A DNA stretch of 64,000 nt from a virus. Under the pieces are notes generated by a model. The model saw only the letters and a list, made by a program, of their open reading frames with translations, was not told the DNA's origin and made no database searches. The stretch is taken from IMG/VR virus record IMGVR_UViG_3300031758_000004, positions 1-64,000 of that record; one strand, 5' to 3'. Shown one piece after another: positions 1 through 42,165 of this stretch. A program made the translations under genes and the position numbers. Each line of letters opens with the position of its first letter. Position 1 is the stretch's first letter.

Positions 1-150
1 TGACTCCCACTTGTACCAGATGTTCCATCATTTCCATTTAATCCAGAAATTCCGGAAGTACCAGATGTTCCATCATTTCCATTTATTCCAGAAGTTCCAG
101 AAGTGCCTTGACTCCCACTCGTACCAGATGTTCCATTAGATCCAGTTGGT
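1..150 (-). repeat. Gly-Thr-Ser coding repeats, block C (runs off window)
   Basis: Read on the minus strand this encodes tandem GTSGTSG triplets with Asn, Asp or Ile substitutions. These are coding collagen-like repeats within the fibre gene. They are not a CRISPR array: there are no spacers and the frame stays open. Confidence 0.85.
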
Positions 151-3089
151 CCTATCTGTGTGTACATAACCTGAGTAAATGTAGAAATCACACTAGGTAT
201 AGCAGGAATTATAGGTGATATACTTGATGGTAAATATTGAATTGATACTAAACTACTATCAGAATGCCACCACAATTCGACAGTATCATTTGGGTTTATT
301 GAAGTTCCAACATAATTTACAGTTGCTACTGTATAACCATACTCATTTGAATTTTTTCTAGCCGGTATATAAAATCTAGTTGTGCTATCTGGATAATCTA
401 ATCCATTATATTTTAACCATATATCAGCATAGTGGATATCAGCATCTGTATTTTGTAGTTGGATAGAATATATCATAGTGTATGTTCCTGGATTTTCAAT
501 CACCACACTACCTGTACCTGATAAGGAAAATCCAACTGATCCTGAATTAGTGTTAATACCCACTATTTGAGCAACACCAGGAGTAATAAATGGCTGAGTC
601 GTAAGATCAAGAAAGTTACCATAATAACCTAGTGCACCACCAACACCATTTACACCACTTGTTCCATTCAAACCTGATGTACCGGATGTTCCTGAAGTAC
701 CCACCCCCGAAGTTCCTGAAGTACCACTACCACCACCTGGATTAGTTGTTTGATAATATGTATTTCCACTATCATCAACAACCATATATTTAGTTAAACT
801 TGATGTTGATCCAATTCCTGTTATCGTTAAGTTATGTGTATTTGTTCTACCTTGACCAGTTACACTAAATGTAACACCATCAACACCACTTTGAACTTCA
901 AATACATTATCGGTTTCTAATGAACTTCCTCTTTTGATTGTAACAGCTCCTAAAGTAGAGTTAGTTACTATTTCTGGTGTAGATGAGTTATCATAAGCTT
1001 GTTGTAATGTAGTTGTTGATATACCACCAGATCCACCTAAGATCTCACCAAACTTAGAAACAAAATTAAATCTTGCCTGTGTGGGATCTGATAAGTTTGA
1101 AGCATTTTTATTAACAGATAAAATACCTATAAGAATACCATTATCTCTATTATTTGGATACTCAACATATAATTCTTCTTGTGCTGCTGAAATCGCTTCA
1201 GATAAAGATCCATATACTGTTTGACCATATTGAACTCTTACCAATCCAGTTGGGAATAAATATATTCTTTGATTTGTTGACGAACCATTACCACCACCTA
1301 CTACACTAATAACACCACCATTATCATAATGAGTAGGATCTATAAATGTTGTATTAGAAAATGTACCACCTATTTGAGTTCTATATTGAAAAGTTACCGG
1401 AGATTGACCACTAATATTAATACTATTTGGATTTAATTCATTATTAGTCCAATTTATACCATTACCCCAAAGAATACCAGTTGATGTATTAAACTCTAAA
1501 GTTGTACTATGAGCGGATGGTATAATTCCTTGATTTATTAATTTGATTGGTGACCATAAATCTCTCAATGCGGACATTGGTGATACATCATAATCAACAG
1601 TATTATTTACATTTAAAATGGTTTGTCTATCAGGGTGTACAACTTTACCTAAGAAGATATTTTGTCTTCTTTCTTGTGCTGTTGGAAATGTACCTTGTAA
1701 ATGTAATGAAGAACTAGCTGTTAATAAAACATAAGTACTATCAAATGTGTTTAAGTAAGGTGTTGTTATACTTGTAGTTCCACCATAAGTAATTTGTAAA
1801 ACTGTTGGTTTAATAGAATATGTACCTGTATTAGTTATAATCCAACCAGAAGCACTACCCACTGTAAATGTTGTACTACTAGTTTTAACAAGTCCCGAAT
1901 AATTATAAACACCTGTTGATATGACATTACCTTCTAATATATTTCTCTGTATATCAGTAAGAGATAAATTGATATCCTCATTATTAATTTCAACTTGTAG
2001 AGTTCCAATTGTTGAACTATTATTTGTAATATAACCAATTTGGTTAGTTCTTGATGAAAAATCTAATGTACTTGATGAGTTTATAAAACTACCTGGTGTT
2101 GTATCAGATAAATAAAGAATATCACCAATCGAATAAGCTGATAAATCAAGTCCCGATAAGATACCAGATGATATGGCAATACCCTCAGACGCAATTGGAA
2201 TATCAATATAAGCCAGACCAATTACTTGTTGATTTCCAACACCATTAGCAATTGACAAAGAGACACTGGGAATACCACTATATGATGACTGTATTTTAAG
2301 AGCAGATCCCTTAGGTATAATTGAACCAGTATTATTATAAACTCGGATAAATTGTTTAGTTTGTGGGTGATTAACTAACCAATTTAATCCATTACTTTCA
2401 ACAGTAAGAGTATCATAGAATGCTAAATTATATGACGATAGATTATCAATTAGCTGAGAAGAAGTTGTTTTTATTGTTATTATACCAGTTCCGGTATTTT
2501 TTATAATGAATCCTTTCCCTGAAAAACCTATTGCTGTCGGTAAAGTAATATCAAAAGTTCCATTAGCCTCAATATAGTGATCTGTATTGGATACCGAGTA
2601 GGTTGATGTTATATAAGCATAATTAGTAGAAACACTTGTACCTGATGTTCCTGAAGTGCCATTAGATCCAGAAGTCCCTGAAGTTCCATTTGTACCTGAA
2701 GTTCCATTTGTACCTGATGTTCCATTTATCCCTGATGTTCCGGAAGTTCCTGATAAACCAATTAACATTTGTTGCCAATGAGATGTATCTATATCAGGTG
2801 ATGACCAAGGAGCTGAACCAGTTAAATCAGAAATACATAAGTAAGCATTTCCATTATATGTAACAAAATCATAGTAGAAATACATCATCATCGAATCCCA
2901 TTCTCCTTGGAATAACATAGATGTTCCTTGTGGTCCTGTCGGACCTTGTGGACCAACAGAAGATGTACCACTTCCTAAATCTAAAAGATTTCCAAAACCA
3001 TCATAATATAAATCCGGTGTACCATGTACTACTTGAACCAATCTACCATATGTTCCGGAGACGGTTGCACCAGTAAAATCATAACTCAT
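1..3089 (-). CDS. Collagen-like tail or appendage fibre protein (partial, C-terminus outside window)
   Basis: Read leftward from an ATG at 3089, the frame stays open to the window edge for about 1029 codons. Residues 46-57 hold a true Gly-X-Y run (GPQGPTGPQG). Residues about 60-110 (GEWDSM...YNGNAYLC...W) resemble small carbohydrate-binding modules. Three blocks of Gly-Thr-Ser/Asn triplets then alternate with beta-rich, Ser/Thr/Asn-rich segments typical of trimeric phage fibres. No signal peptide is seen. A TTAATATATA motif lies just upstream of the start on the same strand. The neighbouring leftward cassette encodes protein-glycosylation-type enzymes, so this Ser/Thr-rich protein is a plausible substrate (inference). 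The exact fibre type is unknown. Confidence 0.85.
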   Translation of the reverse strand, partial: MSYDFTGATVSGTYGRLVQVVHGTPDLYYDGFGNLLDLGSGTSSVGPQGPTGPQGTSMLFQGEWDSMMMYFYYDFVTYNGNAYLCISDLTGSAPWSSPDIDTSHWQQMLIGLSGTSGTSGINGTSGTNGTSGTNGTSGTSGSNGTSGTSGTSVSTNYAYITSTYSVSNTDHYIEANGTFDITLPTAIGFSGKGFIIKNTGTGIITIKTTSSQLIDNLSSYNLAFYDTLTVESNGLNWLVNHPQTKQFIRVYNNTGSIIPKGSALKIQSSYSGIPSVSLSIANGVGNQQVIGLAYIDIPIASEGIAISSGILSGLDLSAYSIGDILYLSDTTPGSFINSSSTLDFSSRTNQIGYITNNSSTIGTLQVEINNEDINLSLTDIQRNILEGNVISTGVYNYSGLVKTSSTTFTVGSASGWIITNTGTYSIKPTVLQITYGGTTSITTPYLNTFDSTYVLLTASSSLHLQGTFPTAQERRQNIFLGKVVHPDRQTILNVNNTVDYDVSPMSALRDLWSPIKLINQGIIPSAHSTTLEFNTSTGILWGNGINWTNNELNPNSINISGQSPVTFQYRTQIGGTFSNTTFIDPTHYDNGGVISVVGGGNGSSTNQRIYLFPTGLVRVQYGQTVYGSLSEAISAAQEELYVEYPNNRDNGILIGILSVNKNASNLSDPTQARFNFVSKFGEILGGSGGISTTTLQQAYDNSSTPEIVTNSTLGAVTIKRGSSLETDNVFEVQSGVDGVTFSVTGQGRTNTHNLTITGIGSTSSLTKYMVVDDSGNTYYQTTNPGGGSGTSGTSGVGTSGTSGTSGLNGTSGVNGVGGALGYYGNFLDLTTQPFITPGVAQIVGINTNSGSVGFSLSGTGSVVIENPGTYTMIYSIQLQNTDADIHYADIWLKYNGLDYPDSTTRFYIPARKNSNEYGYTVATVNYVGTSINPNDTVELWWHSDSSLVSIQYLPSSISPIIPAIPSVISTFTQVMYTQIGPTGSNGTSGTSGSQGTSGTSGINGNDGTSGTSGISGLNGNDGTSGTSGS
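641..740 (-). repeat. Gly-Thr-Ser coding repeats, block B
   Basis: A second block of collagen-like GTSG triplets, preceded by a short glycine-rich linker (PGGGSG). It separates two beta-rich domains of the fibre. Confidence 0.85.
2632..2756 (-). repeat. Gly-Thr-Ser coding repeats, block A
   Basis: The longest N-proximal block, with alternating GTSG and GTNG triplets. It follows the carbohydrate-binding-like module and precedes a long beta-rich region. Confidence 0.85.
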
Positions 3090-3130
3090 AGTAGTATATA
3101 TTAAGTAACATGTGTCCAAACATGAATTAT

Positions 3131-3141
3131 TTAATATATAA
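3131..3141 (+). promoter_or_regulatory. Candidate phage late promoter motif TTAATATATAA
   Basis: The motif lies 18 bp before the start at 3159 and recurs before many genes in the window. It is analogous in position and AT content to the T4 late promoter TATAAATA. A reverse-strand TTAATATATAC copy serves the fibre gene that starts at 3089. Confidence 0.45.
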
Positions 3142-3158
3142 CAGAAATAAAATTTTAT

Positions 3159-3569
3159 ATGCCTTTAATTTACTCACCTTTATTAAACCAAGATGTAAAC
3201 TGGAGTGATTTGGAATATTCAGTTGGTAAAAAGTATTTAAAATGGGAAGAGGTAAATTTAAAATGGGAAAATGTTGAATTAACTTGGGATGAAGTTTTTA
3301 TTTTATTAGAAGTGGTATCACGCCGAGTGAGTGGTGGTGGAAGTGGATATCCACATAAAGGAGAATATGAAAAAAATAATCCATGGAGGCAACTAAATAA
3401 GGATTTAGGTAGAGAAAATACCGATAAAATAATAAAATTATATTGTAGAGTTAGAGGTATTGAATATGAAAAAATAAAAAATCCGAGAGAAGATATAAAA
3501 GTAACAATAAACGAGTTTGATCGTTTTTTAAACGATTCAATTAATATAAAAGTTGATTTTCAAAAATAA
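3159..3569 (+). CDS. Hypothetical protein with W-x-x-V repeats
   Basis: 136 residues, not recognised. Residues about 27-46 contain three short near-repeats (LKWEEV, LKWENV, LTWDEV) like a small beta-ladder. A Gly-rich turn (SGGGSG) and a Lys-rich C-terminal half follow. It starts the rightward pair between the fibre gene and a bidirectional terminator, and the ATG follows the late-promoter-like motif. Because of its place beside fibre genes a minor virion role is possible, but this is inference only. Confidence 0.6.
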   Translation: MPLIYSPLLNQDVNWSDLEYSVGKKYLKWEEVNLKWENVELTWDEVFILLEVVSRRVSGGGSGYPHKGEYEKNNPWRQLNKDLGRENTDKIIKLYCRVRGIEYEKIKNPREDIKVTINEFDRFLNDSINIKVDFQK

Positions 3570-3579
3570 TATATAAATT

Positions 3580-4266
3580 ATGGAAGATAATGATGTTTTT
3601 AGATTTGAAGATTTTCTAGGTGGTAATAAAATGGAAGATCTTAAAAAGATGAAGTCAAATCTATTAAAAGAAGGTTTGTTTTCAGATAGATATGAAGATG
3701 ATGAGGTTGATGAAGATAAAGAAATATTTACAAATATCAACGACGCCGCCGATGATGAAGATGAAATTGATCAAAGCTTAAATCCTTATAATAACTACAA
3801 TAGTGAGGAAGAACAAGAACAAGATGATTATTCATTTGATAATTCTTCAGAAGAGGAAGATTTGGAAGAAAATAACGAAAGTTATAATGATGAAGATTCA
3901 TATGTGTTATACAAAGATAAATCTGAAGAATTTATTTGTGATATAGCAATTGAAGGTGTAAGTCAAAAAGATACAGAAGTTAGATTAGTAATTGAATCAG
4001 CTGATTGGAATCTTATGTTTAAAGGTGAGGTTAAAAACGGTAAATGTATCATTCCTATTAAGAAATTAAGCCTTTTTAATGAAGGACAAAGAGGTAATAT
4101 AAAACTAGAAGTAAATGCTGATGGTAACTTATTCACACCTTGGAAAGATGAATTTATTGTTAAAGTATCTAAAAAGGTAACAGTTAATCTAAATGAAAAT
4201 AAAAAAATACGACCAATTAAAAAAGAAACTGGTGTAAAAGTAAAAGTAAACAAAAAGAGACCATAA
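3580..4266 (+). CDS. Acidic hypothetical protein with C-terminal beta domain
   Basis: 228 residues, function not recognised. Residues about 25-115 are dominated by Asp and Glu. The C-terminal part (about 118-210) is a compact beta domain (ICDIAIEGV...LVIESADWNLMF...LEVNADGNLFTPW). The last residues are Lys-rich. An acidic N-terminus joined to a folded C-terminus recalls phage scaffold or core proteins, but no family is assigned. It lies 10 bp after the preceding gene and ends in a strong terminator hairpin, so the two form a short operon. Confidence 0.65.
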   Translation: MEDNDVFRFEDFLGGNKMEDLKKMKSNLLKEGLFSDRYEDDEVDEDKEIFTNINDAADDEDEIDQSLNPYNNYNSEEEQEQDDYSFDNSSEEEDLEENNESYNDEDSYVLYKDKSEEFICDIAIEGVSQKDTEVRLVIESADWNLMFKGEVKNGKCIIPIKKLSLFNEGQRGNIKLEVNADGNLFTPWKDEFIVKVSKKVTVNLNENKKIRPIKKETGVKVKVNKKRP

Positions 4267-4279
4267 AGGTCTCTTTTTT
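4252..4279. terminator. Bidirectional intrinsic terminator
   Basis: AAAAAGAGACC pairs with GGTCTCTTTTT around a 5-base loop. It has a T-tract on one strand and an A-tract on the other, and lies between convergent genes ending at 4266 and 4282. Confidence 0.9.
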
Positions 4280-4281
4280 AT

Positions 4282-6633
4282 TTAAAAATTAAATTGTGGT
4301 AAAACATCTTCATCCAAGTTTGGCACTCTTATTAAACCAGAATTCATTATTGTGTCAATAACCATTTTACCAGTAATTGACTTAGTACATTCAAACTGTC
4401 TTTCAGTACCTTTATGATCCGGACACCAATTCCAATCACCAGCATCTAATCTATATCTATTGTAACAACCATTACAAACTGAATCATTGAAAATTCTAAA
4501 TACATTCTCACCTTCAAATTCAGAGATTGGTTTACTAAATCCTGATATCAAGAATGTTGGGACTCCTATTGTCCAAGATACCCAACTCAAACCAGAACCA
4601 ACTCCTATAAAAAACTCACAAGATAACATTGTTTCCATTAGTTTCTCCATTGATCCCTCTGGTAATTTCACACATCCTTCTGGATGTTTATTACCCATAT
4701 AATTATCACCTTCTTTAGAAAGAATCATAACTTCATATCCACTAGCCTTCAAAAAATAAACAACTTCCTGCCATCCAGTTGGATTATTCCAGTATTTAGT
4801 TTGTGCAGTTGAGTGAATTGCTATACCAACTCTTTTCTTTTTTTCTACTTTTGGTAAGTTAATTTTAGCTCTGACATATTCAAAATCCAAACCTAGTATA
4901 TCAGCTGATGTTTTTCCAAGTGGAATTTCTTTAAAATCTGTTGGATTTTTATCAAACTGTACAGTATTATCCTCATTATAAAACCAACCAATATTATACA
5001 TAGCATAGATGTGATTCACCACTGATCCCGGTTCAACAAATTCAATTTCTGGATAAGTTTCCTTAAATAGGTGATTCCAGAAAGTTGAACATATAACCTC
5101 ACAATTCCATTTTTTTCTAAATTCATCAACATATGGAAACCAAGCCAATGTATCGCCAATTGATCTCGATTCTAATGTTATAAAAACTCTCTTACCCGTA
5201 GCATCATACTTTTTATCATAGATTAATTCTTCACCATCCCAGACTTTACATGTGTACTCTTCAAAATACTTCTTATTTGTTTTTGTCCACATATTACTAC
5301 CAATGGTTGTTGAATATTCACAAAACCCCTTTGAATTCCAGAATTCAACTTTAAATTGTTTATTCAATTTTGACTTAACTTCAATATAAGCACCTCCAAT
5401 ATAATGATTTAAAATACTAACATCCTCATATTTTGGATTGATATTGATATCAGATTTTTCTATATTATCATAGAAATTTAAAAGTTTTTCCTCAAAATTT
5501 GAATTACTATTACTAATTAAATTATGAATTTTATCAACTTCATTTAAATCCTTCACACAATGAAACCCGAAGATATTATTTTTATCATATGGAAATCTAG
5601 ATTGAAATGGATATCCTTTACCGTGTTTATTCATATCAACTGGTAACTCATACCCATCATATTTATATTCTAAAAAGAATTTAACATCATTTGAATTAGA
5701 AACATTTATAAAGAACCAAAACATTTTAGGTATTATATTATTCTTCCATAGAATGCAATTGAATAATATTTCATCATGTAAAAACTCTTTCTCACAAATA
5801 GTCTCAACTTCTTCTAAATCACAAACAGACTTCCATTCTTCAAATATTGATTTATGTGTTTGATTAAAAATAACAACATTTGTTAAACAATATGGTGATG
5901 TTTGTTTATCAACTCCCAATAATTTTCTTGTTAAATCGCCAGGTGTATAGGCACCATTAACAAAAGTATAATCCCAACATCCTCTTTGTAAAATTGGACC
6001 ATCCGTTATGTATTTAGCATATTCAAAAATTTCAGATATATTATCTCTTACTTGAATATCAGAATCTAAAAATACATAGTCCTTATATCCTCTAGAAATA
6101 GCATCTAAAAATGCTGTCGGTTTTGTAAATTGTATATAATGCGGATTGTTAAGATCTCTACTAATATCAATTTTAATATTTTTTATTCGATTATTATTAT
6201 ACATGGTTTCATAACCAATTGTATAATGAAGTATATCTATATTAGTTAATTTAACTAATTGATTAATTAATTTTATAGTTAAGTCTTCATACTTTTTATT
6301 AGAAACCAAAACAAAACATTTTGATCTATCATTTATAACTTGATCATAAATTAATCTATCATTTGAATAAATTTTTAAGAAATACTCTTTATCACCCCAA
6401 GTTGATCTGAAATCTTTATTCATAATAAAAAATGATTTTTTATTATCAACATCTTCTTTGTTTGGTATGATATTAGTTTTTTCAAAAATTAAATCATCGA
6501 AAAATATATTTTTCAAATTAATTAAACAATTTTCAAAAAATTTATCAGTGTTATTTTTTATTTCTAAAAAATCACCATTTATTTTAACATCAAAACTCAT
6601 AAATATATTATATTTTTTCGGCGTAAATAACAC
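4282..6633 (-). CDS. Bifunctional glycosyltransferase: GT-A domain + autotransporter-type O-heptosyltransferase (Aah/TibC-like)
   Basis: 783 residues. The N-terminal half (about 1-370) looks like a GT-A glycosyltransferase with a DxD-type motif (FLDSDIQ). The C-terminal half (about 400-775) matches the bacterial autotransporter O-heptosyltransferase family (Aah, TibC). It has SIGDTLAWFPY, KYWNNPTGWQEV, FFIGVGSGLSW and FLISGFSKP...SEF, and the metal-finger cysteines in CNGC...WNWCPDHKGT...FECT. Family members O-glycosylate Ser of surface proteins with heptose. It is the last gene of a leftward overlapping trio beside a Gly-Thr-Ser fibre. The sugar and target here are not known. The heptosyltransferase domain assignment is strong; the N-terminal domain is less certain. 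Confidence 0.9.
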   Translation of the reverse strand: MLFTPKKYNIFMSFDVKINGDFLEIKNNTDKFFENCLINLKNIFFDDLIFEKTNIIPNKEDVDNKKSFFIMNKDFRSTWGDKEYFLKIYSNDRLIYDQVINDRSKCFVLVSNKKYEDLTIKLINQLVKLTNIDILHYTIGYETMYNNNRIKNIKIDISRDLNNPHYIQFTKPTAFLDAISRGYKDYVFLDSDIQVRDNISEIFEYAKYITDGPILQRGCWDYTFVNGAYTPGDLTRKLLGVDKQTSPYCLTNVVIFNQTHKSIFEEWKSVCDLEEVETICEKEFLHDEILFNCILWKNNIIPKMFWFFINVSNSNDVKFFLEYKYDGYELPVDMNKHGKGYPFQSRFPYDKNNIFGFHCVKDLNEVDKIHNLISNSNSNFEEKLLNFYDNIEKSDININPKYEDVSILNHYIGGAYIEVKSKLNKQFKVEFWNSKGFCEYSTTIGSNMWTKTNKKYFEEYTCKVWDGEELIYDKKYDATGKRVFITLESRSIGDTLAWFPYVDEFRKKWNCEVICSTFWNHLFKETYPEIEFVEPGSVVNHIYAMYNIGWFYNEDNTVQFDKNPTDFKEIPLGKTSADILGLDFEYVRAKINLPKVEKKKRVGIAIHSTAQTKYWNNPTGWQEVVYFLKASGYEVMILSKEGDNYMGNKHPEGCVKLPEGSMEKLMETMLSCEFFIGVGSGLSWVSWTIGVPTFLISGFSKPISEFEGENVFRIFNDSVCNGCYNRYRLDAGDWNWCPDHKGTERQFECTKSITGKMVIDTIMNSGLIRVPNLDEDVLPQFNF

Positions 6634-8185
6634 CCATTTTATTTTCTATTATATAATTACCACAATTATGACTCCATTTTGATAATTTAAATTTAAATCC
6701 ACAATATGTTAGTTTCTCTAAAATACTCATAGCTCTATAATTATCATTATTGTGATATTCTATTATAATTCTTTTTATCTTTTTAAGGTTTTCATTTGTT
6801 ATAGTTTCAAAGAAATCATACTCAGCACCTTCAATATCAACCTTCATCAAATCTATCTCACTCTCATCAATAAATTCTTCAATTAGTTTATTCGGTGTTA
6901 TAGATTGAACTCTAACTTCTTTTCTCTCCATATCATTTCCATTAGCATCAGTATGATATAAAGAAGAAACAACCGAACCTATACCTGGACTTGTATAAAA
7001 TACAATTTCACCATCAACTGATGAAATTGCCTTATCTATAATTCTTATTTTAGAATTCTTACTCCACATTCTATTTAGAATATCTACATTTGATTGGTCT
7101 GCTTCTATCATATATGTTTTTATATCTCTCTCAATAAAAGATATACTCGACATACCATAATTTGCACCAATGTCAACATAATTATTAATTTCATCAATGT
7201 TAAAACTAAATAAATCATAGATACTCATATCATTAAAGTCGGAAAACTCATTGAACTTAACTTCAGTATCTTTAATTAATTTAAACTTATTAGAAAGTGG
7301 ATGCTTTAAGTCAAAATCTTTTATTAAAATATTTTTTCTAATAACTTGATTTTCTAAGTATATTTCTAAGTAAAACCCATTTACTGACTTATTAATATTT
7401 AAACTAAATGGTGGTATAAACCAAAAAATTAAATTCTGTTTTAAATCAAAATCTCTATTCAAATAAATACAGATATCGGTATAATAGTCAAATATTCTAA
7501 AGTGAACATTGTTCATATCTTCACTATTATTCATAATAAAGAATTTTGTTTCTTCAGGAGAATACCAAAAATCTATTTTATTGTAGTTATAAAAACAAAG
7601 ATCTATCTTATTTTGACCATAAAATTCATATTTATCACTAAACGAATATATTTTATCTAAAACATTATTATTTCTAAAATTAGCCTCCCAACAGTTTTCT
7701 AAAACTGTGTTTACTAAAAACATTTCTTCAATGCTTCGGAAAAATGTTATATTTGTAAGTAAAAAATCTATATTAGTAAAGAATGAATTTGTACAAATGA
7801 TATTAGTTCCCCAATTACAAGAAACAAATTGATATCCATCTATATTCCATTTTTTAAACTCATTAACATCAACTATTTCAACATCATAAGTTATCTTATA
7901 AGTATAATTAATTGATTGATCTTTTAAATGTTTTAAACAAATTTCAATTAAATTACTTTCTGCAACACCGTGTGAATATTTTCTATCATCAACAATATTT
8001 TTTTGTTGATAAAAATAAAAGTCACACATTTCCTGAATGTTTTTATCTAAAGGTGAGTGACTTGCTAAAACTAAGTAATAATTTTCTCTACTAATAGTTT
8101 TTAAATTCTCTATAAGTAAATTCAAACCTTCATCTGATGTATGAAAGTATGTAATGATAAATCCTATTTTAGTGTCTGTCTTCAT
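6608..8185 (-). CDS. Bifunctional GT-A-like glycosyltransferase + FkbM-family methyltransferase
   Basis: 525 residues. Residues 1 to about 215 look like a GT-A nucleotide-sugar transferase: an opening beta-alpha unit (KIGFIITYFHTSD) and an acidic DVEI in the DxD position. A beta-rich linker follows. Residues about 335-510 are a clear FkbM methyltransferase with SAM-binding VDIGANYGM, then MIEAD, and a conserved MKVDIEGAEYD. FkbM enzymes usually O-methylate sugars, so the protein probably adds and/or caps a glycan (inference). It overlaps the upstream gene by 17 bp and the downstream gene by 26 bp, indicating translational coupling. The methyltransferase call is strong and the N-terminal call moderate. 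Confidence 0.85.
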   Translation of the reverse strand: MKTDTKIGFIITYFHTSDEGLNLLIENLKTISRENYYLVLASHSPLDKNIQEMCDFYFYQQKNIVDDRKYSHGVAESNLIEICLKHLKDQSINYTYKITYDVEIVDVNEFKKWNIDGYQFVSCNWGTNIICTNSFFTNIDFLLTNITFFRSIEEMFLVNTVLENCWEANFRNNNVLDKIYSFSDKYEFYGQNKIDLCFYNYNKIDFWYSPEETKFFIMNNSEDMNNVHFRIFDYYTDICIYLNRDFDLKQNLIFWFIPPFSLNINKSVNGFYLEIYLENQVIRKNILIKDFDLKHPLSNKFKLIKDTEVKFNEFSDFNDMSIYDLFSFNIDEINNYVDIGANYGMSSISFIERDIKTYMIEADQSNVDILNRMWSKNSKIRIIDKAISSVDGEIVFYTSPGIGSVVSSLYHTDANGNDMERKEVRVQSITPNKLIEEFIDESEIDLMKVDIEGAEYDFFETITNENLKKIKRIIIEYHNNDNYRAMSILEKLTYCGFKFKLSKWSHNCGNYIIENKMGVIYAEKI

Positions 8186-9812
8186 TGTATATTTTATCTA
8201 ATATTGAGTAACCAGCCGATTGTTTTGTTGGTGGTACTTCAAAAATTCCTGTTTTATATTGATCTAAATTCTCAACAAATAATAAATCAGATACATTCCA
8301 CTTAGCAGTTTGATACATTTTATCAATTATACCAAAACTTCTTCTTGGTATTAAATAAGCATGAGCTCCATAAAATTTATTAACTGTCCAATAATCATTA
8401 TATTTGTCAATTATATGTGAGTTATTATGATAACCAAAAGAAAACATCAATAAATCCGTTTTATTTAGAACATCACAAGCAAATTTAACCTTACTCATAA
8501 ACTCATTCATATCAATATCAATAACAGCATCACATTCAAATATGAAAATGAAATCCGAATCTGAGTTCATACCTCTATAAAAAGCGTCTTTATGTGCCAA
8601 ATAACAACCATAATGACCTGGTGTTAATTTACCACCTGGTTCCATACTTATTTTTTCCGGATATTGACAACTATCAGATGGAGGCAATTCAGTCCATCTT
8701 TTATTCACACAAGGAAAATAATCAATACCATAATCTTTTAATTTAGTTAAAGATATCATTGATTTTACTTCTCTATCGGTATCAATATCTGTTAACATAT
8801 GATAAGCAGATATTTTATATTCTTTATAATTATCTTCTACTTTCTCTTTATTATCTATAATAAACTCTTCTAATTTTAATGAATCTTTAATTAACTTTAC
8901 GTTATAATCAAAGTCATTTGTCAAAAATTCAACATTTTCATATTTAGAAAACTCACCTTTGTAATTAGATAAGTTATACATTAAAACACTCATATTATTG
9001 GATAATGCTTCGATAACAGATAATGGTCTATTTTCTAATTTAGATGTAAATAAGAAAAGATCCATACAAGAATAAAACTTGTGTAAATCACTTCGTTCAT
9101 CCCATAATGTGCAATTCTCAGGTCTATTATTAACTAATGGTCTCCAATATTCCTCAAAATTCCCAGCCATATTACCAAAGAAATGAAAATGAACTTTTTG
9201 ATCTAACATCATTTTAGCATATTCAAAGATTTCTGATTGATTTTTATTACTATTAAATAAACCAACGTTCATAACATGTTTATAACTTGGATCTAATCCA
9301 AGATCAATAAGTTTTTTATTTCTAAACTCACTGTTATCAACATCCATTGGTATTACTTCTGGTTTAGTTGAAATAGAATTATATTGAATCATATTTATAT
9401 CAGAAACAAACATAGTTCTATCTGGAAGATATTTCTTATCATCTTTATTAAATAAAGTACCATGTGTTGTTTCAGTTATAACATAATTATAACCACTTCT
9501 CATATCAATATAAATTGACTTTAGTATAGAATCATCGATAAATGTTTCAGGAAATTCTTCAAAATGTATTATATCTGGATTAATTACATCAATTAGATTA
9601 AATATATTTTTTTTATCATAAAGAGTAATTAATTTATCACCCAATATATCTTTAATTCTATTTTTTTGAATAACCAATCTACCACCAGTTATATCATCCC
9701 ACTCTACTAAGTAAACATCAAATTTTTTAACTAAAATCTCTATTTTTTTAAGTAAAAATTGTGGTAAACCACCAGTGGATAAATGCGGAGTAATTAATAA
9801 TAATTTCTTCAT
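8169..9812 (-). CDS. Bifunctional GT4 + GT25 glycosyltransferase
   Basis: 547 residues from the ATG at 9812. A longer frame to 9905 adds a hydrophobic stretch antisense to the next gene's start and was not chosen. Residues 1 to about 335 are GT-B/GT4: an N-terminal ITPHLSTGGLPQ loop, VGLFNSNKNQ, and FTSKLENRPLSVIEALS with the family Glu. Residues about 350-547 look like GT25, the LPS or collagen glycosyltransferase family: PGHYGCYLAHKDAF, an acidic FECDAVID, and a C-terminal GAHAYLIPRRS. It is the first gene of the three-gene leftward cassette. GT25 includes collagen galactosyltransferases, notable given the collagen-like fibre nearby. Confidence 0.85.
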   Translation of the reverse strand: MKKLLLITPHLSTGGLPQFLLKKIEILVKKFDVYLVEWDDITGGRLVIQKNRIKDILGDKLITLYDKKNIFNLIDVINPDIIHFEEFPETFIDDSILKSIYIDMRSGYNYVITETTHGTLFNKDDKKYLPDRTMFVSDINMIQYNSISTKPEVIPMDVDNSEFRNKKLIDLGLDPSYKHVMNVGLFNSNKNQSEIFEYAKMMLDQKVHFHFFGNMAGNFEEYWRPLVNNRPENCTLWDERSDLHKFYSCMDLFLFTSKLENRPLSVIEALSNNMSVLMYNLSNYKGEFSKYENVEFLTNDFDYNVKLIKDSLKLEEFIIDNKEKVEDNYKEYKISAYHMLTDIDTDREVKSMISLTKLKDYGIDYFPCVNKRWTELPPSDSCQYPEKISMEPGGKLTPGHYGCYLAHKDAFYRGMNSDSDFIFIFECDAVIDIDMNEFMSKVKFACDVLNKTDLLMFSFGYHNNSHIIDKYNDYWTVNKFYGAHAYLIPRRSFGIIDKMYQTAKWNVSDLLFVENLDQYKTGIFEVPPTKQSAGYSILDKIYNEDRH

Positions 9813-9886: not shown

Positions 9887-11209
9887 ATGAGTAATTTAAA
9901 AACACTTAATGATTTAGAAAATACAGAATTACTTAACTCTATGTTTAGTAATGATATAACCGTATTCGAAGATATTCAAGGAAGTAAAATATGGGTTAAT
10001 TGGAATGGTAAAGATTTTACTATAAAAGCAAAATCAATTAATAGTGATTCTATTAATCTAATTGATTTAGCTATGCAAAATTATTATAACCCAGCTATAA
10101 AATACTTAGATTCACTAGATAATAGAGTTAAATCACTTTTAAATAAAAAATGGTGGTTTTGTTTTGAGTACTTTCCTGATAATCAACCAGCAAATATAGA
10201 ATATGATAAACTTCCAAAAAATGGATTAGTATTAACATCTATTTATAAAAGTGGTAAATATGAGTTTAATATCGAAGAGATTGATGAATATTCTAGATTG
10301 ATGAATGTTGATATGATACCGGTTATATTTCAGGGTAAATTAACAGAGAGAATGATTGAGGCTATAAAGTATTTTTTAAACACAAGTGAAGAAGATTTAG
10401 AATATGTTTTTGGTGATAAGTCTTTTGCCTTTTTCTTTTATAAAATATTAAATCCACTCTCGGAAAATTCTTTTTTAATGCTTGATGAATTTCAAGAAAA
10501 TTTAGAAAAGCTAATTGTTAGAATAGATAGTAAAGATATATCATTTCAATTACTAAATCCACTATATAAAAGAGTAAGTAGTGATAAGTCAACTGACTAT
10601 GTGGAAATATACTCATTAATCTTAATTAACTTTTTGAATTTTTGTCAATCTTTAAATTTAGAAGATATTAAACTAAAAGGTACTAAAAAAGATGAGATTT
10701 ATATTTATCTAATTTGTAAGTTGTACAATTTTTATTTAGATGAAGTTAAAGATGACTTAGTAAATTTTGAGTTTATAATACCGGAATTTTTTGATAAAGA
10801 AAAATTTAAAATAAATAAAGAATTAATTCCAAACAAGATGACTAAAGAATATTTAGAATTAGATTCTAAACTTGAATATATCTTTAAAATAATTCTTGGT
10901 TCATTTAATAAGAAAAGAAAAAAACCAATTGGAGTTTTTACTGAAAATACGGTTAAGTTATTCAACTTATTTGTTGATGATATTGATAAGTATATTGATA
11001 GATACTTGAATAAGATACATGAAGTTGAGTTAACAAGATCTGGTCTTTTAGACTTTGATGAGTTTTTTGATATTCAATATGAAACAGATGCTGAAGGAGA
11101 AGTTTATCCAGATGTATTTGATGAAATACAAAAAGGATCAGAAGATAAAAAGAAAAAAGGTAAAGGTGGTAAAATAACATCAATAGTTGATGAGAAAGGA
11201 GTTAAGTAA
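9887..11209 (+). CDS. Ligase-like (nucleotidyltransferase-fold) protein, probably without the catalytic lysine
   Basis: 440 residues. The order of short motifs resembles phage RNA ligases: FEDIQGSK where a ligase has E-K-x-D-G-S, then a motif-III-like WWFCFEYFP, then VDMIPVIFQGKL, then EKLIVRI and FQLLNPLYKR. At the motif I position the AMP-accepting Lys appears to be Asp, and a motif V Lys appears to be Gln. If the alignment is right the protein is an inactive ligase relative, possibly structural or RNA-binding. The C-terminus is Lys/Gly-rich and overlaps the next gene. A completely different fold cannot be excluded from sequence reading alone. Confidence 0.45.
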   Translation: MSNLKTLNDLENTELLNSMFSNDITVFEDIQGSKIWVNWNGKDFTIKAKSINSDSINLIDLAMQNYYNPAIKYLDSLDNRVKSLLNKKWWFCFEYFPDNQPANIEYDKLPKNGLVLTSIYKSGKYEFNIEEIDEYSRLMNVDMIPVIFQGKLTERMIEAIKYFLNTSEEDLEYVFGDKSFAFFFYKILNPLSENSFLMLDEFQENLEKLIVRIDSKDISFQLLNPLYKRVSSDKSTDYVEIYSLILINFLNFCQSLNLEDIKLKGTKKDEIYIYLICKLYNFYLDEVKDDLVNFEFIIPEFFDKEKFKINKELIPNKMTKEYLELDSKLEYIFKIILGSFNKKRKKPIGVFTENTVKLFNLFVDDIDKYIDRYLNKIHEVELTRSGLLDFDEFFDIQYETDAEGEVYPDVFDEIQKGSEDKKKKGKGGKITSIVDEKGVK

Positions 11210-11392: not shown

Positions 11393-12646
11393 ATGATACA
11401 TGATATAATATCTATGAATTTAGAAGTCTTAGAAATTGAGGATAAAAAATTTCACTCAACTATCAGAAAAAAACTTGAAACTAAAAAATCAAGTTTACAA
11501 TTCTTACCAACTATCTTAGAAGAATTATCTGAAAATAAAAATTTTGAGTACAAAGGTGTAAAATTAAAATCATCTTATATAGTTGATATAATACACAATC
11601 TTATTTTAAAATATTATTTTAAAAAAGAGAATAAATTTAACTTAATGTCAACTATCCTAAAAGATAAGTATGGATATCTTTATAATTATTATATTGGATA
11701 TTTAGTAGATAATAATATACTAGAAATGATCTCCAATTACCAAGCTGGTAGAAATGCTAGAGTTTATAAAATAAATGATAAAGTTCTAAAAGGTAAAATA
11801 AATCGATATAGAAATTCGGATAATATTTTACTTAAAAAGTATCGAAATAATGTTTGTCAAATTGAAGAAGATGGTATTAAAAACAAACTTATAGATGATG
11901 ATATCAAAACGAAGTTAGTAGATGATCTTTTTTATATTGATATTCAATTTGATAGATCAATATTTTATTTAGATAATTTAAAAGATAATGATAGTGATAT
12001 TTATAATAGAAATAAATATTCAGTAGAGTGTATAAATGATAAACACATATTCTATCATTTTGATAATTATGGTAGAATGCACACAAATTTCACAATTTTA
12101 AAATCATTCATTAGAAAAAACTGTTTACTGATAGATGGTGAAGAAACTTGTGAAATTGATATCAACAACAGCCAACCTCTTTTTTTAACAAAAATAATTT
12201 CCGATAGTAACTCAAAATGGGTTAGAAGTGATGAGTTTGAATTATTCAAATATTTAACCATAAATGGTAAATATTATCAATATGTAATGGATCATTTAAA
12301 AACTACTGATAAAGGAATGGTTAAAGAAATGACTTACCGAGTTCTTTTTGGTAAGAATGCTTCCAATAGTAAAGCAGATAAAGTATTTTCTGAATTATTT
12401 CCATCAATACATTATTTTATAAAACTTTATAAAAAAGAAAAAGGTGATTATAAAATTCTATCATATGAATTACAAAGAGCAGAATCTAATTTAATTTTTA
12501 ATAAAATCATAAGAGATATAATGATTTTTTACCCTGAAGTAAAATTAGTTACTGTACATGATAGTATAATTATTCCTAAAAAATATAAAGAACCTATCGA
12601 AACAATTTTCAAAACCAAATTATTTGAAGAATTTAATATTTTATAA
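11393..12646 (+). CDS. Small PolA-like palm-domain polymerase
   Basis: 417 residues. The second half carries family-A-like polymerase signatures. There is a motif A EIDINNSQP (D256), a fingers-like stretch near residues 311-322 (KEMTYRVLFGKN), a conserved LQRAES, and a motif C TVHDS (D390). Family A DNA polymerases and T7-type RNA polymerases share this arrangement of a metal Asp in motif A and HD in motif C. The N-terminal 200 residues are not recognised and contain no visible 3'-5' exonuclease. It could be a template-dependent DNA or RNA polymerase or a primase. The window also has a family B replicase fragment, so this is not the main replicase. Confidence 0.65.
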   Translation: MIHDIISMNLEVLEIEDKKFHSTIRKKLETKKSSLQFLPTILEELSENKNFEYKGVKLKSSYIVDIIHNLILKYYFKKENKFNLMSTILKDKYGYLYNYYIGYLVDNNILEMISNYQAGRNARVYKINDKVLKGKINRYRNSDNILLKKYRNNVCQIEEDGIKNKLIDDDIKTKLVDDLFYIDIQFDRSIFYLDNLKDNDSDIYNRNKYSVECINDKHIFYHFDNYGRMHTNFTILKSFIRKNCLLIDGEETCEIDINNSQPLFLTKIISDSNSKWVRSDEFELFKYLTINGKYYQYVMDHLKTTDKGMVKEMTYRVLFGKNASNSKADKVFSELFPSIHYFIKLYKKEKGDYKILSYELQRAESNLIFNKIIRDIMIFYPEVKLVTVHDSIIIPKKYKEPIETIFKTKLFEEFNIL

Positions 12647-12681: not shown

Positions 12682-13215
12682 ATGAACGGATTAGAAAGTG
12701 TACAATCTTCATATATAATTCTATCAGCTGATAGATTAAACGAAATGATTTCTGTTCTTTATTCAAAAGAATATCAAATCTTACCTATACAAGGTTATTA
12801 TAAAGGTAACTTTGAAGATTCTGTTATTGCTTGGGGACCAGATAATGATTCTTTAAGAAGAGATGCTATTTTCTTATTAGATCATTTTAATCAAGATTGC
12901 GCAATTGTAAAATACCAAGGAGATTCAAATGCTAAAAAAGTTTTCTTTGATGGTTCTGAACAACCACTGGGTTTACTTATGTATAATACCGATTCGGAAA
13001 ATAAATCATATTTACACAATGGTGTATCATTTTCGTTCGTAGAAGCAAAAAGATATTGGGTTCCAAAAACTATGGATGATTTAAAAGTTGGAATGATTGT
13101 TGAATACATGAACAACAATAAGTGGTATGAAAAAAAGATACAAAACCCAAAAGACGAATGGGATAGAATGTATAAATTACTACTTAAATATGATAAATTA
13201 AGAGTACCAGCATAA
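12682..13215 (+). CDS. Hypothetical protein, DUF3293-like N-terminal part
   Basis: 177 residues. The N-terminal two thirds follow the layout of small DUF3293-type phage proteins: a helix (SADRLNEMISVL), a strand with IQGYYKGNFEDSVIAWG, a second helix, then HFNQDCAIVKYQG. Function is unknown. It stands alone between doubled late-promoter-like motifs and a strong terminator, so it is a single-gene transcription unit and probably well expressed. Confidence 0.55.
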   Translation: MNGLESVQSSYIILSADRLNEMISVLYSKEYQILPIQGYYKGNFEDSVIAWGPDNDSLRRDAIFLLDHFNQDCAIVKYQGDSNAKKVFFDGSEQPLGLLMYNTDSENKSYLHNGVSFSFVEAKRYWVPKTMDDLKVGMIVEYMNNNKWYEKKIQNPKDEWDRMYKLLLKYDKLRVPA

Positions 13216-38283: not shown

Positions 38284-39906
38284 ATGAGCATGATAAAAGT
38301 CACAAAAAGAAATGGTAAGAAAGAAACCGTTAATTTCAATAAGATTGTTGATCGTATAACACAACAAACTTATGGATTAGATCAAAAGTGGATAGCACCG
38401 TTTGAGATCGCACAAAAAGTTATTGAAGGTATTACACCAGATATTAAAACTTCTGTGTTAGATCAATTGGCAATGGAAACTGCGGCTTCTCTTACAACAA
38501 AACACCCAGATTACTCAGTTTTAGCAGCAAGAATCGCTATTACTTCTTTACATAAAGAAACTAAAAAGAGCTTTTCAGAAACAGTTAAAGATTTATATAA
38601 CTATGTAGATCCAATGACAGAGAAACATTCTCCAATTGTTTCTTTGGATTTTTACAACATTGTTAAAAAACACGCTGATGATTTAGATTCAGCTATTGTA
38701 CACTCAAGAGATCATAACTTTGATTACTTTGGTTACAAAACTTTAGAGAAATCTTACTTATTAAAAATTAATGGTAAAGTTGCTGAAAGACCTCAGTATA
38801 TGTATATGAGAACAGCACTTCAAATTTGGGGTGAAAACTTAGAAAAAGTAATTAAAACTTATAACGAATTATCAGAAGGTTATTATACTCACGCAACACC
38901 AACATTATTCAACTCTGGAACAGGTAGACCACAATTATCTTCTTGTTTCTTATTAGATACTGAATCAGATTCTATTGATGGTATTTTTAACACATTAAAA
39001 GAAGCTGCTCAAATCTCTAAAAACGCGGGTGGTATTGGTATCTCTTTTAACAAAGTAAGAGCTAAAGGAACTTATATTGCTGGTACAAACGGTACTTCAA
39101 ATGGTATTATTCCTTTCTTAAAAATCTATAATGAGACAGCGAGAGCGGTAGACCAAGGTGGTGGTAAACGTAAAGGATCAATTGCTATTTATATGGAACC
39201 ATGGCACGCTGATATTATGGACTTCTTAGATTTAAGAAAGAACCAAGGTAAAGATGAAATTAGAGCTCGTGACCTTTTCTTAGCAATGTGGATGAACGAC
39301 TTGTTTATGGAAAGAGTTGAGTTAGATGCTGATTGGTCATTAATGTGTCCTCACGAATGTACTGGATTGAATGAAACTTATGGTGAAGAATTTAACAAAC
39401 TTTATACTTCTTATGAAGCGGCTGGAAAAGCTAAAAGAGTTGTTAAAGCAAGAGAAGTTTGGAATAAAATATTAGAATCTCAAATTGAAACTGGTACACC
39501 ATACTTATTATACAAAGATTCAATCAATGAGAAATCAAATCAATCAAATATTGGAATGATACACTCATCTAATCTATGTTTAGATGGAGATACTTTAGTT
39601 AAGTGTAGAGTTGAAGGTGTAGAGAAAGAATTTGATATGGTCACAATAGATCTTATGTTTAAGAATGGTAAGAAAATAGAAGTTCTTTCTAGAGACTTAG
39701 AAACAGGAATTGATGAGTGGTGTTTGGTTGAAAACTCTGGTATAACCAATCATAATGCGGAAACTATCAAAGTAACAGATGAAAGTGGGAATTACATAAT
39801 CTGTACAGAGGATCATCAAGTTTGGACTCAAAATAGAGGATATGTTAGAGCTGGTGATTTAGAAGAAAATGATATTTTATTATTAAATGAAAAAGAACTT
39901 GTTTAA
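38284..39906 (+). CDS. nrdA: Ribonucleotide reductase large subunit, N-terminal half + split intein N-fragment
   Basis: 540 residues. Residues 1-431 are class Ia NrdA: an ATP-cone N-terminus (VTKRNGKKETVNFNKI), the redox Cys in PQLSSCFLLD, and NAGGIGISFNKVRAKG. The frame reaches ...HSSNL and then enters an intein at residue 432 (CLDGDTLVKC). The second half, which encodes the catalytic Cys, starts at 40804. Splicing would yield SNL-CAEI, a canonical radical-cysteine site, and an 852-residue subunit. The type resembles the eukaryote-like NrdA branch. No nrdB is present in this window. Confidence 0.93.
   Translation: MSMIKVTKRNGKKETVNFNKIVDRITQQTYGLDQKWIAPFEIAQKVIEGITPDIKTSVLDQLAMETAASLTTKHPDYSVLAARIAITSLHKETKKSFSETVKDLYNYVDPMTEKHSPIVSLDFYNIVKKHADDLDSAIVHSRDHNFDYFGYKTLEKSYLLKINGKVAERPQYMYMRTALQIWGENLEKVIKTYNELSEGYYTHATPTLFNSGTGRPQLSSCFLLDTESDSIDGIFNTLKEAAQISKNAGGIGISFNKVRAKGTYIAGTNGTSNGIIPFLKIYNETARAVDQGGGKRKGSIAIYMEPWHADIMDFLDLRKNQGKDEIRARDLFLAMWMNDLFMERVELDADWSLMCPHECTGLNETYGEEFNKLYTSYEAAGKAKRVVKAREVWNKILESQIETGTPYLLYKDSINEKSNQSNIGMIHSSNLCLDGDTLVKCRVEGVEKEFDMVTIDLMFKNGKKIEVLSRDLETGIDEWCLVENSGITNHNAETIKVTDESGNYIICTEDHQVWTQNRGYVRAGDLEENDILLLNEKELV
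39577..39903 (+). other. Split intein N-fragment in NrdA (109 aa)
   Basis: Complete blocks A (CLDGDTLV), N2 and B (CTEDHQVWT), ending NRGYVRAGDLEENDILLLN. The layout is very like NrdJ-type split inteins: a normal split position, unlike the helicase intein. Confidence 0.9.
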
Positions 39907-40786
39907 TTATGAGGATTTTATAACAGATAACATAGATAATACATCCTTTATCTATGTTTATCTGGATCCTAGAAAATCAGGAGACTATAAATATGGTGAA
40001 TATGAATTTAATCATGAACCTTTTTATGTTGGTGCTTCTAGTGGTAAAACTATACATGATCGAAAAGTTCGACATTTACAATACGCGAAAAACGATAAGG
40101 ATATAACAAATAATAATTACAAAAAGAATATAATAAAGAGTATATTATCAGATAAATTAGAACCAATTATATTGAAATATATTGATGGTATGAGTATATC
40201 AGATGCCTTTTTTAAGGAAAAAGATATGATACTAATCATTGGTAATAGATATGATAAGTCAGGACCTCTAGTTAATATATCAAAAGGAGGAGATGGTGGT
40301 GATAACTTTACTAATAATCCAAGAAAAGAGGAGATAAGAGAAAAGCATAGAAGAAATGCTTTAGGATCGAATAATAATATGTATGGTCTTCCTTTAGAAG
40401 AATATCCATCACATAAAGCAAAGTTGAGAGGAGAACATTGGAATATGGGTAGAACCGCGTCAATATCAACAAGAGAAAAGCTATCCAAACAAAGAAGTGG
40501 ATCTGGTAATAGTAGAGCTAAAAAAACTTTACTTTTTGATAAAGACTTCAATATAATTAGAGAATTTGATTATTGTTTTGATGTATCTAATTATATTAAC
40601 TCATCAAATAGGTCGGTTTCCAAGACCGCAAGTACAAATTCAAAAGAGGAAATGTATCCATATCATACAACAAAAGGTTATTATATAATCTATAAGGATG
40701 ATTGGGAAAATAAATTTAAGAATAAAGAAAATGAAATTAGAGAATATCTAAAGACATTTAAGAAAAATAAAAATCAATTTTCATAA
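39887..40786 (+). CDS. GIY-YIG homing endonuclease between split-intein halves of nrdA
   Basis: 299 residues. The N-terminal catalytic part has FIYVYLDPRKSG...EPFYVGASSGKTIHDRKVRH (a GIY-YIG variant with Y-V-Y and Y-V-G). The middle has SKGGDGGDNF and helical repeats like other phage GIY-YIG enzymes (NUMOD-type). It begins 20 bp before the NrdA N-half stop in another frame and ends 17 bp before the C-half. It occupies the same relative position as the Vsr-like gene in the helicase but belongs to a different nuclease family. Confidence 0.85.
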   Translation: MKKNLFNYEDFITDNIDNTSFIYVYLDPRKSGDYKYGEYEFNHEPFYVGASSGKTIHDRKVRHLQYAKNDKDITNNNYKKNIIKSILSDKLEPIILKYIDGMSISDAFFKEKDMILIIGNRYDKSGPLVNISKGGDGGDNFTNNPRKEEIREKHRRNALGSNNNMYGLPLEEYPSHKAKLRGEHWNMGRTASISTREKLSKQRSGSGNSRAKKTLLFDKDFNIIREFDYCFDVSNYINSSNRSVSKTASTNSKEEMYPYHTTKGYYIIYKDDWENKFKNKENEIREYLKTFKKNKNQFS

Positions 40787-40803
40787 AAAATAAAAAAAAT
40801 ATT

Positions 40804-40899
40804 ATGATCAAAATCGAAAAAGTAAAAAATAGACCAGTTTATGACATTACTGTGAATAAAAATCACAACTTTTATGCTAATAATATATTAGTACATAAC
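40804..40899 (+). other. Split intein C-fragment in NrdA (32 aa)
   Basis: Block F (YDITVNKNHNFYANNILVHN) with the usual terminal His-Asn. The extein Cys+1 starts at 40900 and is also the catalytic radical cysteine. Confidence 0.9.
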
Positions 40900-42165
40900 T
40901 GTGCTGAAATAGTTGAAGCGACAGGCGTTACTAAAACGCAAAAAGCTATTTTAGAAAATAAAGAGTTATTAGAGAAATTAGGGTTAGGTGAATTCTGGGG
41001 TCAAGAAGAAGTAAATGAAACAGCAGTTTGTAACTTAGCTTCTTTAGCACTTCCTAAGTTTATCAATAAGAATAAAACTTATAATTTTAATAAACTTTAT
41101 GATATTGCTTATGATGCGATTGTTAACTTAAATAATGTTATTGATGTTAACTTTTATCCATCACCATCAGCTAAATTTTCTAACTTATGTCATAGACCAG
41201 TTGGTTTAGGTGTTCAAGGATTAGCAGATGTTTTCTTTCAATTAGGATTACCATATGAATCTGAAGAGGCTAAACAATTAAATAAAGATATTTTTGAAAC
41301 TATCTATTACGCTTCAATTAAAGCTTCTTGTGATTTAGCTAAAGTACAAGGCACTTACGCAACTTATGAAGGTTCACCTATTTCACAAGGTAAATTCCAA
41401 TTTGATTTATGGGGAACTAAACCTAGTAAAAGATGGGATTGGGATAAATTAAGAGAAGAAGTTAAGAAGTATGGTGTTAGAAACTCTTTAACAACTTGTA
41501 TCATGCCAACAGCATCAACAGCTTCTATCTTAGGTAATGAAGCATCTTGTGAAGCTCAAACTTCAAATATGTACACAAGAAGTGTTCTTTCAGGAACTTT
41601 CATTATGGTAAATAAATATTTAGTTAAAGAATTAGTTAAGTTAGGATTATGGAATGAAAATTTAAGAAAGAAAATTATTGCTGAGAATGGTTCGGTTCAA
41701 AATGTACCTGAAGTACCAACTAACTTGAAAGAAATCTTTAAAACTGTTTATGAGATTAAACAAAGAGATGTTATCGAGATGGCTGCTGATAGAGGAGCGT
41801 TTATTGACCAAACTCAATCAATGAATATTTTTATGGATTCTCCAAACTTTGCTAAGTTGACAGCGATGCACTTCTATGGATGGGGTAGAAGAAACTTAAT
41901 GACCAATGAAAATGGTGAAGTTATTATCCCACAAGGAGAAAATATTCAAGTTATTTACGATTCAGAAGGTAAAGCAAGATGTTATAAAGATAAGAGATAC
42001 ACATTAAAAACTGGTATTTATTATTTAAGAAATAAATCAGCGGCAGACGCAGTTAAATTCACTGTACAACAAGATACGGCTAAGAAAACTGTTGAAGAAC
42101 AAATGGCTGAAATCTCGTGTAGCTTAGATTCAGATCCTGGTGAATGCATGGCATGCGGCTCGTGA
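40804..42165 (+). CDS. nrdA: Ribonucleotide reductase large subunit, split intein C-fragment + C-terminal half
   Basis: 453 residues. The first 32 form the intein C-fragment ending LVHN. The extein begins CAEIVEATG, whose Cys corresponds to the thiyl-radical cysteine of class I enzymes (E. coli Cys439). NETAVCNLASLAL supplies the second redox Cys (E. coli Cys462). The C-terminus ends C-x(7)-C-x(2)-C-G-S, the mobile redox tail of the eukaryote-like type. Splicing with 38284 is needed for activity. A terminator follows. Confidence 0.93.
   Translation: MIKIEKVKNRPVYDITVNKNHNFYANNILVHNCAEIVEATGVTKTQKAILENKELLEKLGLGEFWGQEEVNETAVCNLASLALPKFINKNKTYNFNKLYDIAYDAIVNLNNVIDVNFYPSPSAKFSNLCHRPVGLGVQGLADVFFQLGLPYESEEAKQLNKDIFETIYYASIKASCDLAKVQGTYATYEGSPISQGKFQFDLWGTKPSKRWDWDKLREEVKKYGVRNSLTTCIMPTASTASILGNEASCEAQTSNMYTRSVLSGTFIMVNKYLVKELVKLGLWNENLRKKIIAENGSVQNVPEVPTNLKEIFKTVYEIKQRDVIEMAADRGAFIDQTQSMNIFMDSPNFAKLTAMHFYGWGRRNLMTNENGEVIIPQGENIQVIYDSEGKARCYKDKRYTLKTGIYYLRNKSAADAVKFTVQQDTAKKTVEEQMAEISCSLDSDPGECMACGS

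Follow-up and report, generated by a model that had tools for sequence, protein, structure and literature searches.

What do the sugar-active enzymes that a phage encodes near its tail-fibre gene act on? The question arises from an uncultured phage (IMG/VR record IMGVR_UViG_3300031758_000004, 191,442 bases), of which we analysed bases 1–64000, hereafter the window. Here, a cassette of three leftward fusion genes lies close to a collagen-like fibre gene rich in Gly-Thr-Ser (GTS) triplets, and one of the encoded domains resembles TibC, which attaches heptose to bacterial adhesins. We consider it likely (probability about 0.8) that the cassette is a virion-glycosylation module whose TibC-like domain glycosylates the GTS fibre.

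Organization of the cassette and its surroundings

The three cassette genes (Table 1) overlap by 17 and 26 bases. In the preliminary description they had been presented as consecutive, overlapping double-domain fusions, and gene order, overlaps and fusions hold; the GT-A domain assigned to the N-terminal half of the middle gene could, however, not be substantiated, as this half gave no family match and no confident fold in a low-confidence model. The FkbM domain of the same protein scores above the family cut-off. For the first gene, the GT4 domain is supported by PF00534 (34.9 bits, cut-off 26.4, E 1.4e-8), and the GT25 domain, which stays below the cut-off in the window protein (PF01755, 21.5 against 24 bits), is matched in all five relatives (best E 1.1e-6) as well as by a GT25 chain in a PDB sequence search. 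Searching with the GT4 + GT25 protein alone returned no relatives beyond the window's own phage, and the others surfaced via the search with the FkbM protein. A beta-barrel module common to all three enzymes, hinted at by strand patterns, received no support from profile comparison.

Table 1. Position of the cassette, its domains and its neighbours in the window.
Feature	Position	Strand	Basis or remark
Collagen-like fibre 1, presumed glycan acceptor	3..3119	-	3' end cut by contig start; likely ATG 3089; PF01391
Small gene separating fibre from cassette	3159..3569	+	Conserved flank; homologues of 62-65% identity at equivalent site in L185, L007, L013
Acidic gene separating fibre from cassette	3580..4266	+	Conserved flank; equivalent site in L185, L007, L013
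Fusion of N-terminal beta domain, GT8-like GT-A and TibC-like O-heptosyltransferase	4282..6633	-	Likely start ATG at 6600
Aah/TibC-type O-heptosyltransferase domain	4345..5403	-	TIGR04414; PDB 4rb4; 4rap structure match
Iron-finger segment, four Cys equivalent to TibC C339, C342, C358, C370	4387..4476	-	Alignment; invariant in 82/82 viral sequences
GT-A (glycogenin/LARGE1-like) domain	5503..6327	-	Residues ~92-366 of 772-aa form; LDSDIQV (DxD-like) motif
Fusion of N-half of no matched fold and FkbM methyltransferase	6608..8185	-	Pfam, NCBIfam
FkbM methyltransferase domain	6689..7180	-	PF05050 53 bits; TIGR01444 72.9 bits (cut-off 37.7)
GT4 + GT25 glycosyltransferase fusion	8169..9812	-	Pfam, PDB search
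Conserved upstream flank of cassette slot	9887..11209	+	Homologue of 70-76% identity, equivalent site in L185, L007, L013

An identical contig (L002) completes the fibre gene, whose product measures 1193 aa; adjoining it in the same direction is another collagen-like gene, encoding 1022 aa. Fibre 1 matches the Pfam Collagen family (50 bits) and tail-fibre groups of PHROG; its commonest triplets are GTS (35) and GSS (5), and a single proline occurs across all X and Y positions. Further GTSG proteins are encoded at 66–74 kb, 154–156 kb and 169–170 kb of the phage record. The earlier statement that the cassette lies beside the fibre is correct as to proximity but not as to direct adjacency, since the gap of about 1,160 bases is filled by two genes on the opposite strand.

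On the other side, the gene at 11393–12646 encodes a conserved 417-aa neighbour of the cassette with a TVHDS motif that recalls family A polymerases; its protein had no PHROG match and no Pfam family above cut-off. The gene at 12682–13215, whose place next to the slot is conserved in L185, L007 and L013, matches a SAM lyase family weakly (24.5 bits, cut-off 28). Elsewhere in the window (38284–42165), the large subunit of ribonucleotide reductase is encoded by two ORFs (38284–39906 and 40804–42165) with a GIY-YIG-domain gene (39887–40786) between them, probably due to invasion by a homing endonuclease. The 1267-aa product of the gene at 56087–59890 carries ankyrin repeats towards its C-terminal end; its homologues among INPHARED phage records are confined to uncultured phages of >600 kb.

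A TibC-like enzyme with an altered base pocket

The third cassette protein scores 293.2 bits with the NCBIfam profile TIGR04414 (hepto_Aah_TibC; cut-off 200), and TibC (4rap/4rb4) is its sole PDB sequence match (4rb4, E 1.4e-57). In an AlphaFold2 model (mean pLDDT 75.8, pTM 0.52), the C-terminal half superposes on TibC 4rap (TMt 0.84, E 5.9e-31), so that sequence, profile and fold all place this domain inside the O-heptosyltransferase family, as had been proposed from the motifs. The GT-A assignment of the N-terminal half likewise agrees with the predicted structure, a GT8-like fold for which Foldseek returned glycogenin (E ~1e-7, TMt ~0.5) and LARGE1 as nearest.

In TibC, D110 serves as the base, T226 and K230 touch the beta-phosphate, W305 contacts heptose O4, R286 contacts adenine N1, and C339, C342, C358 and C370 bind iron and are required for assembly and activity (PMC4358343). 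In the alignment, D110, T226, K230 and W305 correspond to D494, T609, K613 and W684 of the window protein, and the four cysteines to C720, C723, C737 and C749. D110, K230, W305 and the cysteines are invariant in 82/82 viral sequences and T226 is found in 81. R286 is replaced by L665 in the window protein and by L, V, A or I in 81/82 viral sequences, and the position of P300 (here G679) holds G or S. These residues lead us to expect an active window enzyme whose base pocket has changed.

The enzyme follows the GTS repeat in viruses

Relatives of the enzyme, both fused and stand-alone, were collected from IMG/VR in non-random scans (at least 237 stretches, of which 80 were kept). A Gly-X-Y gene of at least eight triplets was present in all 16 long records examined, and it lay closer to the TibC gene than expected at random (combined p 3e-6, distance test), the single-record tests being mostly non-significant alone. 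For the reverse test, 50 viral records were picked solely by the motif GTSGTSGTSG on contigs of at least 15 kb and compared with 50 viral records carrying the motif GPQGPQGPxG and 50 matched by an arbitrary 14-mer. The TIGR04414 cut-off was exceeded in 18/50 GTSG records versus 1/50 GPQ-collagen records (Fisher, p 1.4e-5) and 0/50 controls (p 1.2e-6), where, as for the other p-values given here, the relatedness of the sequences means that independence is overstated. On contigs of at least 50 kb, the counts were 15 of 22, 1 of 18 and 0 of 13, respectively. The TibC-like enzyme is thus found to follow the Ser/Thr-rich repeat and not collagen-like repeats generally.

Only four INPHARED records contained relatives. 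Among them, the Microcystis phage Mel-JY01 (L089, PP395634.1) is a named isolate and the sole cultured phage found to encode the enzyme, a 1226-aa protein scoring 317 bits with TIGR04414, and an open GTSG-rich collagen-like frame (nt 2–2599, plus strand; 80 GTSG/GSSG/GTSS matches) lies just upstream of it. The database record annotates an antisense ORF (739–2298, minus strand) in place of the GTSG fibre frame, which is likely a common error for GTSG genes.

Conservation and exchange within the cassette

The preliminary description had suggested a search for the same three fusions beside repeat fibres in other phages, and four related loci were found. Three of them (L183, L185, L003) contain the whole three-gene order; in the fourth (L187), two genes, one GT-A and one TibC-like, take the place of the third fusion. 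All four lie near Gly-X-Y fibres. The split arrangement implies that the window fusion joins two otherwise independent proteins. In two further phages (L007, L013), the flanks are as in the window and the slot is instead filled by a single GT4 + TibC fusion. Hence, the TibC-like domain is constant while its partner enzymes vary, as would be expected if the former makes the protein–sugar bond and the others decorate it.

No published account of a phage fusion of this kind came to light, in agreement with the preliminary description, but such fusions are common in uncultured phages. Our literature search, which covered few subscription journals, returned no phage-encoded bacterial autotransporter heptosyltransferase (BAHT), no report on GTSGTSG in phages and no paper uniting heptosyltransferase, collagen-like and phage. 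As a side observation, a 7.5 kb contig binned as a Rickettsiaceae MAG (L549) encodes a TibC-like domain of 77% identity together with its own fibre and looks like a mis-binned phage contig.

Enzymes of the GT4, GT25, GT9-like and FkbM families are frequent in polysaccharide synthesis, and the cassette could accordingly modify host LPS or capsule, so as to exclude other phages or bring about serotype conversion. None of our results favoured this reading over fibre glycosylation. The TibC family consists of protein O-glycosyltransferases, no membrane segments were found in the three cassette proteins, and in phages and bacteria alike it is GTS-repeat genes to which the enzyme is linked, which makes an action on host polysaccharide very improbable.

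The same pair in bacterial chromosomes

A scan of bacterial genomes gave at least 33 loci, and 301 genomes of the order Methylococcales, to which Methylobacter belongs, were sampled. TIGR04414 matches above cut-off formed two classes, one of about 655 bits with R286 and one of about 300 bits with I, V or M at this position (class B, phage-type). A secreted GTS-repeat gene adjoins 8/9 phage-type TibC genes versus 0/13 R286 autotransporter-type loci, seven of which were drawn from a phylum-wide sample (p 2.8e-5). The DNA pattern GT[AS]x3 occurred in 10/301 genomes, namely in 6/9 with class B versus 4/292 others (p 1.7e-8), and in 6/6 class-B genomes carrying it, 3.6–5.1 Mb in size, it was located no more than about 1.5 kb from the TibC gene. 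The paired genes are co-directional, convergent or divergent. In genomes of the order (L588–L591, L593–L596), the GTS-repeat proteins beside the phage-type gene are small and secreted.

In the phylogenetic tree, a clade of autotransporter-type sequences (38 rows, TibC among them) is separated from a GTS clade of phages and bacteria (41 rows; SH-aLRT 100/100), and the switch of partner appears as a single event. The basal members L556 and L557 keep R286 and yet have GTSG lipoproteins alongside, so the change of partner may predate the loss of R286.

These data bear on two further explanations. Glycan genes and Ser/Thr-rich fibres could co-gather by accident where large aquatic phages of one host group have their variable regions, and GTS repeats might mark a host group rather than a substrate. 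TIGR04414 is missing from 32/50 GTSG records, though their contigs are mostly fragments, and together with the weak single-record distance tests this would fit an accidental linkage. Such a linkage is nevertheless very improbable given the near absence of the enzyme from GPQ-collagen phages of similar size and the close bacterial spacing in all three gene orientations. Secondly, the enzymes could glycosylate modified bases in phage DNA, since DNA-hypermodifying glycosyltransferases encoded by phages are known (Pyle et al., 2024, as cited in PMC12619734). The iron-finger family of TibC targets protein Ser, the cassette sits by fibres and the bacterial homologues adjoin secreted GTS proteins, and we regard a role in DNA modification as extremely improbable.

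The substrate put forward in the preliminary description, the phage's own fibre, is thus supported by the viral co-occurrence, by the recurrence of the cassette near Gly-X-Y fibres and by the bacterial pairing. The same type of enzyme next to the same repeat in many phages and bacteria probably coats the fibres with sugar.

The donor sugar

Provided that the fibre is glycosylated, heptose is the probable sugar. In 30/80 phage TibC loci, including L003 with the same three-gene cassette, a nucleotidyltransferase is encoded either by the adjoining gene or by the one beyond it. Only that of L003 was compared with NCBIfam; it matches HldE domain II best (97 bits, below the cut-off of 181.5), and its closest PDB chain is an ethanolamine-phosphate cytidylyltransferase (E 9.6e-24). 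A kinase usually comes after it; the two tested match HldE domain I best (TIGR02198, 97–132 bits, below the equivalog cut-off), with heptose-7-phosphate kinase (4e84) as closest PDB sequence. Compared with HldE itself, the relatives encode separate HldE-II-like and HldE-I-like proteins directly after the TibC-like gene, and the scores lie below the curated cut-offs. These HldE-like neighbours speak for heptose as donor, as had been tentatively suggested.

GmhA was found in 0/35 records searched, and the window phage had no match to GmhA, HldE-I or HldE-II. Synthesis of heptose by the window phage itself was discarded on these grounds; the phage would take the donor from its host, which fits the earlier suggestion of host-derived heptose. 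A Bacteroidota host is plausible from the GC content (28%) and the presence of Shine-Dalgarno cores at only 1/118 start codons. In another phage (L008, 11184–11567), a cupin-type, sugar-isomerase-like gene lies between the TibC-like and HldE-like genes and could take the place of a missing sugar isomerase.

The module could alternatively glycosylate protein in the same way but from a donor other than ADP-heptose, the nucleotide or sugar specificity of the TibC-like domain having changed. The loss of the adenine-contacting R286 and the G/S at P300 mean that the donor could differ; the cytidylyltransferase similarity and sub-cut-off HldE-II score of the relatives' nucleotidyltransferase, as well as the lack of HldE-like genes in the window phage, point in the same direction. 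Opposed to this are the invariant W305, which in TibC touches the heptose, and K230, the nearly invariant T226 and the heptose-kinase similarity of the neighbouring kinase, and we regard a different donor as rather unlikely.

Proposed mechanism and relation to known systems

The scheme that follows is inferred as regards the transfer itself, the residue and sugar involved, the succession of steps and the function. In the cytoplasm of the infected cell and ahead of fibre assembly, the TibC-like domain would move a sugar, probably heptose, onto Ser (or Thr) hydroxyls of the Gly-Thr-Ser repeats. The glycan could then be lengthened by the GT8-like, GT4 and GT25 domains and would probably be methylated by the FkbM domain. 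Likely purposes would be to stiffen the proline-poor triple helix, to protect the fibre against proteases or binders, or to adjust contact with the host. More tentatively, and with clearly less than even odds, the GTS-repeat protein and the TibC-clade transferase, in many phages with the HldE-like pair, could constitute a portable glycoprotein-fibre system common to phages and bacteria, in which dense heptose-based Ser/Thr glycans replace (hydroxy)proline in holding the collagen-like triple helix and added GT and FkbM modules make the outer glycan differ between phages.

Enzymes of the BAHT family (TibC, AAH; TIGR04414) form dodecamers and pass heptose from ADP-heptose to Ser. The phage enzymes share with them the fold, the iron-finger cysteines, the catalytic Asp, the Thr, Lys and Trp residues and a score above the curated cut-off. 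They differ in forming a separate, strongly supported clade, in lacking R286 and in being fused to other GT domains. Moreover, their partner is a GTS collagen-like repeat of fibres and secreted proteins, whereas that of BAHT is a strand-loop-strand autotransporter. The proposed fibre also resembles BclA of Bacillus, a Gly-X-Y surface protein whose O-glycans contain methylated sugars; BclA differs by its GPT repeats and other transferases, and to our knowledge no TibC-type enzyme acts on it. In mycobacteriophages, phage-encoded enzymes glycosylate virion proteins, in the available accounts at the C-termini of capsid and tail-tube proteins (Freeman et al., 2023, via PMC12619734, PMC10877033). 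Virion proteins would be targeted here, too, but by a TibC-clade enzyme and at fibre repeats.

The findings connect an enzyme family known from bacterial adhesins both with phage tail fibres and with a simple repeat, from which an acceptor sequence can be predicted for a clade of enzymes so far unstudied. One cultured phage and Methylobacter lend themselves to direct tests of the pairing. As host recognition resides in the fibres, a glycan coat would have consequences for their modelling, expression and display, and the GTS repeat, which is common in environmental phages and usually labelled "collagen-like", would become a signature of glycosylation.
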